The notes under the pieces were generated by a model. That model was given only the letters and a program-made list of their open reading frames with translations, was not told where the DNA came from and ran no database searches. Positions 3,990-8,508 of a stretch of 25,735 nt of DNA are shown piece by piece. Numbering within the stretch: position 1 is the first letter of the stretch; each line of letters begins with the position of its first letter. This DNA comes from a virus. The DNA lies in the IMG/VR virus record IMGVR_UViG_3300006305_000088, positions 1-25,735 of that record. One strand, 5' to 3'. The position numbers were made by a program, and so were the translations under genes.

Positions 3990-3997
3990 TATTTATG
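3990..3997 (-). promoter_or_regulatory. T4-type late promoter octamer
   Basis: The minus strand reads CATAAATA, matching the NATAAATA late-promoter motif proposed for T4-like cyanophages (T4: TATAAATA). It overlaps the gcvP stop codon and lies 11 bases before the start of the large virion gene. This is compatible with a late transcript with a very short leader. Confidence 0.6.
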
Positions 3998-6719
3998 AGC
4001 AAGCACACACTAAATTTCTATCTCCATATACATTATCGATACGTGAAACCGATGCCCAGAATTTATTAGTCTGATTCATTGGGTATGCTGCTTGTTCTCT
4101 TGAGTATGGATACTTCCATTCAGTCTTAGTGCACATCTTAGATGTGTGTGGAGCGTTCTTAAGTATCTCTGGTATAGTATCTATCTCTTCTCTGATACTT
4201 TTTAAAGAACTAACAAATCTTTTTAACTCATCTAATGATTCTGACTCTGTAGGTTCTATCATCATAGTTCCTGCAACAGGCCACGACAGAGTTGGTGCGT
4301 GAAAACCATAGTCCATTAGTCTCTTTGCTACATCTTCAGCAGTCACTGGTAGATTACGACAGTCTATGATACATTCGTGTGCAACTCTACCATTACTTGC
4401 TTTATATAATACTGGAAAGAACTCATCTATTTCTTGAGCAATCCAGTTTGCTGATAGTAATGATACAGCACTTGCTTTTCTAAGTCCATCAGCACCCATC
4501 ATACGAATGTACATCCAACTAATAGGAAGTATAGATGCACTACCTTGTGGTACAGCAGACACACGTTGATGTATAAAAGGTGATAGATGTTTTGCTACAC
4601 CAATAGGTCCGACACCTGGTCCGCCACCACCGTGAGGAATACAAAATGTTTTATGTAAATTCATATGACATACATCAGCACCATACTCACAAGGTTTAGC
4701 AAGACCAACCTGTGCATTTAGATTTGCACCATCAAGATATACCTGTCCACCAAACTCGTGAACGATAGAACATATTTCTTTGACAGTAGATTCAAATACA
4801 CCGTGTGTTGATGGGTACGTAATCATACAGCAAGCAAGTTCATCTGCTTCTAGGTATGCTTTATTTCTTAGATCGTGAATGTCAACGTTACCTTCATCAT
4901 CACAATCAACAGTAACAACTTTCATTCCTGCCATCACTGCTGATGCAGGGTTAGTTCCGTGTGCACTCTTAGGTATCAAACATACGTTTCTCTTAGGATT
5001 TCCGTTGTGTTTATGGTAGTCTAAGATTGCTAATAGACCTGCATACTCACCCTGTGATCCTGCATTAGGTTGTAATGATACTGTATCAAATCCTGTGATG
5101 TCACATAACCATTTCTTTAAGTCATCTATAATTCTTGTGTAACCTTTAGACTGATCCATTGGAACCATAGGATGTAAGTTCATCTCATCCCAAGTAACAG
5201 GCATAAGTTCTGACGCTGCATTTAATTTCATAGTGCAACTACCTAGAGGTATCATACCATTTACTAATGAGAAATCTTTTGCACCTAACTCATAGATGTA
5301 ACGCATCATATCTGTTTCACTATGATACTTATTAAATACATCCTGTTTTAAAAATGGTAAGTCTCTCTCTGGTATTCCAATCCATTGTGTATCAAGAGTT
5401 GAATCCCATACTGCTCTGATGGATACACCAGTTGATACAAAATCATTTTGTGAGTCTACAATATCTTTGACCTCATCTAATGTAGTCAACTCATCTAATG
5501 ATAAAGTAACCCAACCTTGATAGTCATACTTAACATTAAAATTATGTAAAGGTGCTTGAGATTTGAATCTAACTGTATCAAACCCTTCTGAATCATCTAC
5601 CTCTATACCAGACCAAGTTAGTGCTCTTAATAAAGTTGCTCTCAGTCTTCTAATCCTTAATGCTATTGCCATAAGACCATCTGGTCCGTGGTATGCAGCA
5701 TAGAATCCTGCCATATTAGCAAGCAGTGCTTGTGCTGTACATATATTACTGGTTGCTTTGTCTCTTCTTATATGTTGTTCTCTTGTCTGTAGTGCAAGAC
5801 GATAACATTTATTACCTTCATTATCAACAGACTGTCCTACAATCCTACCTGGAATTTTTCTTTTGTGCTTGTCTGTAATAGCAAAGAACGCTGCGTGTGG
5901 TCCACCAAATCCCATAGGAACTCCGAACCTTTGCATACTACCAACTGCAATATCAAATCCCATATGTCCTACAGGTTTCATTAATACTTGTGCCATAGGA
6001 TCTACAGCAGCAATAGTCATTACTTTTAGATCTTTACACCAAGATATTAAACCATCCATTATCTTAATCTTACCATCCACATTAGGCATTTGCATTATCA
6101 TTCCGAAGGCATCATCAACAAAGTCTTCTATACTTATAGATGAGAATATATCCATCGTCACAATCTTTATTCCTAACGGTCTTGCACGGGTCTGTAACAC
6201 CTCGTAAGTCTGTGGGTATATGTATTTGTCAACTATGAATGTATTCTTATCTTTTGTATTATTATATGCCAGTATCATTGCTTCAGCAGCAGCAGTTCCT
6301 TCATCTAATAAAGAAGCGTTTGCAATAGGTAAACCTACAAGTTCTGTTATTAATGTTTGATAATTAAATAATGCTTCTAATCTTCCTTGTGAAATCTCTG
6401 CTTGGTATGGTGTATATGATGTGTACCAAGATGGATTTTCTAATACGTTTCTCTGTATGACAGGAGGTGTGATCGTTCCATAATATCCTTGACCTATAAG
6501 AGATCTCTTGATCACATTCTCACTCATAATTTCTTTGAGTTCTGCAAGTGCAGTGTTCTCATTTAATCCTACAGGAACATCATTTAATGATTTGTATAAA
6601 ATACTATCTGGAACTACTTCACGAACAAGTGAATCTAAATTAGTAAGACCAAGATCGTGTATCATCTTAGTCTGTTGTTCGTCAGTAGGACCTATGTGAC
6701 GACGGATAAAATCTGACAT
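3993..6719 (-). CDS. gcvP: Glycine decarboxylase P-protein (aminomethyl-transferring glycine dehydrogenase), 908 aa
   Basis: GcvP is the PLP enzyme of the glycine cleavage system. It decarboxylates glycine and loads the aminomethyl group on lipoyl-H-protein; T-protein then makes 5,10-methylene-THF. The sequence is full-length and uninterrupted. It starts with SDFIRRHIGPTDEQQ, keeps the IGQGYYGT and ENPSWYTSYTPYQAEISQGR blocks, and ends in the family-typical NVYGDRNLVC. The PLP lysine lies in HMNLHKTF (Lys690 by my count), followed by the glycine-rich PHGGGGPG loop. At 908 residues it is somewhat shorter than typical bacterial proteins (about 950-980), with the shortening spread out rather than a truncation. 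No gcvH, gcvT or lpd is visible, so it would depend on host partners. It follows a promoter-like element and a noncoding RNA unit. Confidence 0.96.
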   Translation of the reverse strand: MSDFIRRHIGPTDEQQTKMIHDLGLTNLDSLVREVVPDSILYKSLNDVPVGLNENTALAELKEIMSENVIKRSLIGQGYYGTITPPVIQRNVLENPSWYTSYTPYQAEISQGRLEALFNYQTLITELVGLPIANASLLDEGTAAAEAMILAYNNTKDKNTFIVDKYIYPQTYEVLQTRARPLGIKIVTMDIFSSISIEDFVDDAFGMIMQMPNVDGKIKIMDGLISWCKDLKVMTIAAVDPMAQVLMKPVGHMGFDIAVGSMQRFGVPMGFGGPHAAFFAITDKHKRKIPGRIVGQSVDNEGNKCYRLALQTREQHIRRDKATSNICTAQALLANMAGFYAAYHGPDGLMAIALRIRRLRATLLRALTWSGIEVDDSEGFDTVRFKSQAPLHNFNVKYDYQGWVTLSLDELTTLDEVKDIVDSQNDFVSTGVSIRAVWDSTLDTQWIGIPERDLPFLKQDVFNKYHSETDMMRYIYELGAKDFSLVNGMIPLGSCTMKLNAASELMPVTWDEMNLHPMVPMDQSKGYTRIIDDLKKWLCDITGFDTVSLQPNAGSQGEYAGLLAILDYHKHNGNPKRNVCLIPKSAHGTNPASAVMAGMKVVTVDCDDEGNVDIHDLRNKAYLEADELACCMITYPSTHGVFESTVKEICSIVHEFGGQVYLDGANLNAQVGLAKPCEYGADVCHMNLHKTFCIPHGGGGPGVGPIGVAKHLSPFIHQRVSAVPQGSASILPISWMYIRMMGADGLRKASAVSLLSANWIAQEIDEFFPVLYKASNGRVAHECIIDCRNLPVTAEDVAKRLMDYGFHAPTLSWPVAGTMMIEPTESESLDELKRFVSSLKSIREEIDTIPEILKNAPHTSKMCTKTEWKYPYSREQAAYPMNQTNKFWASVSRIDNVYGDRNLVCACS

Positions 6720-6830
6720 TAACCGAATGTATGTATGTTATAAGATTTGCGGACAGGTGGATACAAAATTTTCTTTGGTTGTTTAACTGTTAAGTATATC
6801 TTAAGTAGTTTTTTTGATTTCATACTACTA

Positions 6831-6859
6831 ATTATAACACATAAAAAAAGGACCTGCAA
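6831..6859 (-). promoter_or_regulatory. Candidate sigma70-type promoter for gcvP
   Basis: The minus strand has a perfect -10 hexamer TATAAT (6831-6836). It sits 17 bases downstream of TTGCAG (6854-6859), which matches the -35 consensus only at TTG. The -35 lies in the 3' arm of the terminator that ends the upstream RNA unit. The expected leader before gcvP is about 105 nt and has no clear Shine-Dalgarno sequence. Confidence 0.45.
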
Positions 6860-7075
6860 AACACCAATAAAGCAGATCCTTTTTTAAGATTGAAAGGGAG
6901 GTTGGGTTCCTGTGTACCAACAAATAACGGGCATTACTACAGAAGTAAAAACGTTATTGCCTGAGACCCGATCGGTTGAATCGGTTCTACTTTCGTAGCA
7001 GCACCACCTGTGTCTCATCACCTTAACTAGCGGTTGCCAGTAAGTTTATTCAGTCACTCCCACGTCGCGTCCGAC
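6842..7075 (-). ncRNA. Putative structured noncoding RNA, about 235 nt, between psbA and gcvP
   Basis: A strong promoter (7082-7110) and a strong terminator (6843-6885) bracket about 235 nt with no plausible ORF. Read on the minus strand, several helices are visible. They are GTCG/CGAC with loop GACG near the 5' end; CTTA-CTGGC/GCTAG-TAAG closed by AACC; and an outer TGAGAC/GTCTCA helix enclosing CTAC-GAAA-GTAG (a GNRA tetraloop) and CCGAT/ATCGG. A long AATAACG/CGTTATT helix with inner TTACT/AGTAA comes next, followed by the terminator. I could not match it to a tRNA, tmRNA or glycine riboswitch. Structured RNA classes such as manA, wcaG and PhotoRC are described from marine cyanobacteria and phages; I cannot test membership here. 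Confidence 0.65.
6843..6885 (-). terminator. Intrinsic terminator, probably bidirectional
   Basis: On the minus strand GGATCTGC pairs with GCAGGTCC (one T-G pair) around a 14-base loop and is followed by T7. A-runs on the other side extend the stem and would make it work on the plus strand as well. It closes the promoter-to-terminator unit between psbA and gcvP. Confidence 0.85.
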
Positions 7076-7081
7076 TCTAAT

Positions 7082-7110
7082 AATATAGCAGACTCGTCAC
7101 AGGTTGTCAA
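7082..7110 (-). promoter_or_regulatory. Sigma70-type promoter of the putative ncRNA
   Basis: The minus strand reads TTGACA (7105-7110), a 17-base spacer, then TATATT (7082-7087). The -35 is perfect, the -10 has five of six consensus bases, and the spacing is optimal. The expected transcription start is near 7075. Just upstream at 7134-7151 lies a small inverted repeat, TTGTCT/AGACAA. Confidence 0.75.
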
Positions 7111-7211: not shown

Positions 7212-7240
7212 AAAAAAAGACCCCTACTATGTAGAGGTCT
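7212..7240 (-). terminator. psbA intrinsic terminator
   Basis: Twenty bases after the psbA stop, the minus strand forms a 10-bp stem AGACCTCTAC/GTAGGGGTCT (one T-G pair) with a 3-base loop, followed by T7. It separates psbA from the downstream RNA unit. Confidence 0.9.
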
Positions 7241-8352: not shown

Positions 8353-8399
8353 TAGTAAGACGTTTAAGTAGGGCATCAAGGGTAGATGCGAAACTTATT

Positions 8400-8422
8400 T
8401 CCAGTAATCCCTCACTACTGGA
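8400..8422 (-). promoter_or_regulatory. Stem-loop in the psbA leader
   Basis: In the psbA leader, 7-base arms TCCAGTA and TACTGGA pair around a 9-base loop, about 48 bases before the chosen start codon. Structured psbA leaders (PhotoRC motifs) are reported in marine cyanobacteria and cyanophages; I cannot confirm that this is one. The leader has no Shine-Dalgarno sequence close to the start codon. Confidence 0.5.
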
Positions 8423-8437
8423 TATGAAAGACGAAGT

Positions 8438-8443
8438 ATTATA
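8438..8443 (-). promoter_or_regulatory. Isolated TATAAT in the psbA leader (possible second promoter)
   Basis: A perfect -10 hexamer on the minus strand lies about 85 bases before the psbA start. The sequence at -35 spacing is poor (near CTTAAA). It could be a weaker or activator-dependent (middle-type) promoter downstream of the hairpin, or chance in AT-rich DNA. Confidence 0.3.
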
Positions 8444-8508
8444 CTGCCTATAGGTCTTGGTTTAAGAGCAGTTTGTACGCAGGGTGACGATAATTTCGGG
8501 TCCTTTGT

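Follow-up and report, generated by a model that had tools for sequence, protein, structure and literature searches.

The DNA analysed here (the window, i.e. the whole 25,735-nucleotide stretch of IMG/VR virus record IMGVR_UViG_3300006305_000088) raises the question of what is encoded in the spacer between psbA and gcvP: a leader of the gene that follows, or an RNA gene in its own right. The initial annotation, made from the sequence alone, had proposed a separately transcribed structured RNA, acting either in trans or as a gcvP leader working by termination, and either new or belonging to a marine class such as manA or wcaG.

Identity and fold of the spacer RNA

An Rfam covariance-model search of the window returned, at 6891..7076 on the minus strand, a full-length match to manA RNA (RF01745; model positions 1-192), whose score of 176.1 bits against a gathering cut-off of 55.2 (E ~1e-47) lies far above chance. 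The spacer RNA is a member of this known class, described by Weinberg et al. in 2010 (PMC2864571). The suggestion of manA was thus correct; the match removes the suggested novelty, not the structured-RNA call. The likeness to the family extends over the full length, every helix and the conserved loops, and to the kind of host virus, a T4-like cyanophage. The only other family above cut-off in the window was PhotoRC-II, found upstream of psbA (8387-8487) and accompanied there by a promoter with perfect TTGACA-17-TATAAT boxes (8578-8550). The glycine and THF riboswitches were rejected as candidates, both lacking an Rfam match in the window. The same result disposes of the wcaG option (RF01761): wcaG is likewise a structured RNA of marine cyanophages, found in the same survey as manA, but the window contains no Rfam match to it.

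The features of the locus are as follows.

3993..6719, minus strand: gcvP, glycine dehydrogenase (908 aa; Pfam GDC-P, E 1e-167), the next gene downstream
6719..6823, minus strand: 34-aa ORF just past the second promoter, its stop overlapping the gcvP start (TAATG)
6831..6860, minus strand: TTTGCA-18-TATAAT, a second promoter (extended -10) that overlaps the terminator in sequence and from which gcvP would be transcribed
6842..6887, minus strand: intrinsic terminator AAAAAAGGATCTGC / GCAGGTCCTTTTTTT, a -15.7 kcal/mol hairpin followed by a U-tract
6891..7076, minus strand: manA RNA (RF01745; 176.1 bits, E 1e-47), with covariation in relatives
6896..6900, minus strand: multiloop closing stem, 3' strand CUCCC, pairing with 7057-7061
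7057..7061, minus strand: multiloop closing stem, 5' strand GGGAG, pairing with 6896-6900
7082..7087, minus strand: -10 box TATATT, with TG ahead of it; transcription is predicted to begin at ~7076-7075
7105..7110, minus strand: -35 box TTGACA of the manA promoter; equivalent promoter in 78/79 non-redundant manA loci
7218..7240, minus strand: psbA terminator, found in the sequence, upstream of the manA unit

The four helical elements named in the initial annotation (TGAGAC/GTCTCA, CTAC-GAAA-GTAG, CCGAT/ATCGG and AATAACG/CGTTATT) coincide exactly with helices in the consensus structure that Rfam gives for manA. Covariation, which had been proposed as a check on the fold, was found when 45 diverse manA relatives were aligned to the Rfam structure: both-side changes occur in 28 of 52 pairs and standard pairs fill 93.6% of the pair cells, whereas slid controls gave at most 46% and at most 9 both-side pairs. 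The closing stem GGGAG/CUCCC is paired in 100% of the 45 sequences, and two of its pairs covary. For the curated manA alignment, 48 significant pairs have been reported (PMC7779021).

A coding reading of the region was rejected, and the earlier statement that it holds no plausible ORF stands: the sole in-frame ORF on manA (GTG at 7021) is not kept in frame among relatives, where its open length varies from 3 to 93 codons, and the distance separating two fixed motifs is spread about equally over the three frames (26/25/20). Several annotated "hypothetical proteins" are situated on manA RNA, namely PSSM4_169.1 and SSSM5_127 (T4-GC 428), PHM1_121, PHM2_011 and PHM2_012. The T4-GC 428 ORF of P-SSM4 and S-SSM5 is not kept in frame and is therefore probably a miscall on the RNA; the P-HM1 and P-HM2 entries are probably not genes either.

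The predicted transcription unit and its relation to gcvP

The sigma70-type promoter of the initial annotation was confirmed at 7110-7082 on the minus strand; TTGACA-17-TATATT agrees with the consensus at 11 of 12 positions and carries TG ahead of the -10 box. The predicted start coincides with the first manA nucleotide, and in loci whose 5' hairpin aligns, the end of the -10 box lies 8-9 nt ahead of the manA match. At the other end, the strong terminator was recovered as a hairpin of 14 pairs with a U-tract (~6887-6842), which closes a predicted transcript of ~235 nt. The minimum-energy fold holds the manA fold and an independent terminator together (-72.2 kcal/mol, z -2.5), and 2 of 200 shuffles did as well. 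The location of manA between promoter and terminator agrees with the proposed structured RNA in its own transcription unit, which would yield a discrete product. The separate psbA terminator upstream (7240-7218) bears out the view that the RNA is not a psbA 3' tail.

The setting recalls CfrI of cyanophage S-PM2, also a small RNA near psbA (~225 nt, beside that gene; PMC12197685). CfrI is antisense to psbA, however, whereas the window RNA lies on the psbA strand and does not overlap the gene, and manA in other phages is mostly not adjacent to psbA. A CfrI-like antisense RNA against the psbA 3' end is therefore scarcely credible here.

A more serious alternative is that under which the family was filed, i.e. 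that manA regulates in cis, as a leader and perhaps a riboswitch, any gene downstream, here acting on gcvP by termination. In the 2010 survey the class was curated as cis-reg "Y" and riboswitch "y" (PMC2864571), reviews and phage genome papers continue to label it cis-regulatory, as does Rfam, and a terminator does lie between manA and gcvP in the window. This terminator, however, overlaps no manA helices and does not compete with the closing stem, and it is followed by a second promoter (6860-6831) from which gcvP would be served. An attenuator was rejected since terminator and manA fold coexist, with no structural conflict, and the second promoter precedes gcvP. An expression platform, i.e. 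alternative pairing with the terminator or a ribosome-binding site, was not found at the window locus, where manA is expected to form 0.25 pairs with the following 80 nt. The same TGTTATAATTAGTAGT string is present ahead of gcvP in L310-L312, in which the sequence of the 34-aa ORF is also kept; in L322 and L324, which form a separate lineage, a terminator also lies behind manA, and a TATGCTATAAT promoter comes next, immediately ahead of gcvP.

Association with gcvP is also rare. Among 74 gcvP loci of phages whose upstream sequence was long enough to judge, manA lies upstream of the gene in 5, three of which are near-identical to the window; the other 69 have no manA upstream, and 8 of these carry it elsewhere on the same contig. 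The own promoter of gcvP and these 69 loci argue against the gcvP leader of the initial annotation. The phage gcvP itself (3993-6719) is ~70-74% identical to copies in many cyanophages, including P-HM1 and P-HM2.

Promoters and neighbours across manA loci

For a wider comparison, 186 manA loci from uncultured virus contigs and isolates were collapsed to 79 non-redundant ones according to how similar their downstream 200 nt are. Just upstream of manA, a promoter with at least 9 of 12 consensus matches, placed to start at about manA nucleotide 1, is present in 78 of the 79; at least 11 matches are reached in 72, as against 1 of 790 shuffles. The -35 box lies within the terminator hairpin of the upstream gene in 31/79 loci, with the U-tract as spacer. 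Such terminator-embedded promoters (GAGGGTTGACACCCTCTTTTTTTATGCTATAAT) were seen in L091, L088, L130, L017, L127 and others, and at 112.7 kb in P-HM1. Behind manA, a terminator hairpin occurs within 110 nt in 34 of 79 loci (two being tRNA arms), compared with 2 of 60 shuffled sequences.

The next ORFs downstream belong to 33 different protein families. A terminator, a tRNA and/or a late-promoter motif precedes this ORF in 50 of the 79 loci, the weakest class among these being the late-promoter motif ([CA]TAAATA), which is short and was scored without a chance control. While the family is filed as cis-regulatory, manA has the genomic context of an independent unit at this locus and at most of the non-redundant ones. 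In the remaining 29/79 nothing detectable separates manA from the next ORF (most commonly gp32, also talC), which favours a cis-acting leader; in these loci manA would be an mRNA leader unless it is processed. Both gp32 and talC recur downstream (10 loci each), and the neighbours of manA are therefore not random. In seven loci, tRNA genes lie 8-19 nt behind manA, which speaks against a leader; in S-SSM7 tRNA-Gly starts directly at its 3' end, so that tRNA processing would release manA. Across loci, manA pairs with the 80 nt that follow it no more than with swapped downstream sequences (p 0.25), and thus no common expression platform is visible. Taking into account the unrelated downstream families, we consider a cis-regulatory leader unlikely.

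Some manA RNAs are directly followed by a further hairpin, GACCUAAGAUGCAA..GGCAGAUGGUC, absent from the Rfam model, from the window and from the isolate phages searched; its carriers are a subset of uncultured cyanophages. It was observed as GACCUAAGAUGCAA-CUC-loop-GAG-USGGGCAGAUGGUC directly 3' of manA in L012:3492-3528, L030:1191-1155 and ~110 other loci. Of 95 exact copies, 94 lie directly behind manA, the sole exception being a copy at a contig edge, and a general terminator motif was rejected on this ground. A looser search gave three basal-stem variants, all with manA (GACC/GGUC 93, AACC/GGUU 17, GACA/UGUC 1), together with 40 matches elsewhere that do not resemble the hairpin and look like chance. 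The covariation is real but thin, resting on 4 pairs. In some loci the hairpin is followed by a U-tract, in others by gp32 or tRNA-Gly without one.

Copy number, relocation and proposed function

All 14 manA-positive isolate genomes contain exactly one copy, as does each of 15 uncultured virus contigs of 35-231 kb; one further contig has none, and 7 of 8 further cyanomyoviruses lack manA. The position of this single copy is not fixed. P-HM1 and P-HM2, one species in the record taxonomy, carry manA at different sites: in P-HM1, as in MED4-213, it follows gp23, and in P-HM2 it precedes gp32. The alignment of the two genomes reveals a clean empty site at each position, with 289 nt comprising promoter, manA and terminator at the gp23 site of P-HM1 versus 41 nt in P-HM2, and 220 nt with manA at the gp32 site of P-HM2 versus 25 nt in P-HM1. 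The gp32 promoter is kept with and without manA. Judged from these sequences, a single-copy element with changing neighbours but a constant start site of its own has the appearance of an RNA gene. The single copy and its different sites in sister phages also speak against a cis-regulatory leader.

The invariable start of manA at +1 of a strong promoter, often embedded in the upstream terminator, could also point to a general cis element of transcript 5' ends (e.g. a processive antitermination signal or a 5' stabiliser) serving whatever gene follows, and the frequent terminators behind manA would suit such a role. However, manA is present once per genome, and the P-HM1 copy has a terminator behind it, beyond which lies a gene that carries a late-promoter motif itself; at loci of this kind there is nothing long to protect or to read into. 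We regard a general 5' element as quite improbable.

The element appears to be viral. A host gene was rejected, as manA is absent from 299 of 300 genomes of the host family Cyanobiaceae. It was also seen on L235 (PARM01000056.1) and L227 (PBKX01000039.1), binned as Gammaproteobacteria and Flavobacteriales MAGs. By inspection their ORFs resemble T4-like phage genes; both are probably misbinned viruses, and reports of manA from gammaproteobacteria may have the same origin. Base pairing with, or mimicry of, host rRNA was rejected, the 9-nt complementary and 11-nt identical runs being at chance level. The main text of the P-HM2 infection transcriptome paper (PMC5082946) does not mention the manA region.

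It is probable (roughly 60%) that manA is a self-contained early transcription unit of T4-like cyanophages, in which the RNA itself functions, probably in trans, and not a gcvP switch. A host-type sigma70 promoter would fire at manA nucleotide 1, the RNA would fold into a 5' hairpin and a closed multi-branch domain, and the terminator that follows closely would end transcription, so that the product measures ~235 nt; this could act in trans early in infection, e.g. through contact with a protein or RNA of host or phage. The function most likely lies in the RNA product because manA is single-copy, occupies unrelated sites in related phages and lacks both a conserved expression platform and a conserved target gene. 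Sequence comparison establishes the identity, the structure, the promoter position, the terminator at this locus, the single copy per genome and the relocation; a discrete transcript and action in trans are predicted from these. We consider an RNA gene that is autonomous, and probably acts in trans, more likely than a switch; of the options first proposed, the trans-acting phage RNA is the best-fitting candidate. The main evidence to the contrary comes from the 29 loci with a directly following ORF, where the RNA may be processed or may act as a leader.

Phage T4 likewise encodes small stable RNAs, C and D, which are linked to tRNA genes and have no known function. Some manA genes directly precede phage tRNA genes; this is an analogy only.

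For the family as a whole, we lean slightly towards the view that manA has been misfiled as cis-regulatory, and that it is a phage-restricted, single-copy, position-independent, early trans-acting RNA gene, which changes from one gene junction to another as a cassette of promoter, RNA and in some cases terminator, and in a subset carries a manA-only 3' hairpin. Known since 2010 without a function, manA has been taken to regulate neighbouring genes, and the reading as a stand-alone RNA gene contradicts the database label. P-HM1 and P-HM2, as close relatives with manA at different sites, make this reading directly testable. If it is correct, partners of the RNA, whether proteins or other RNAs, should be sought in infected Prochlorococcus in place of ligands and downstream genes, and manA would represent a widely distributed non-coding RNA of phages, carried by marine viruses of very high abundance.
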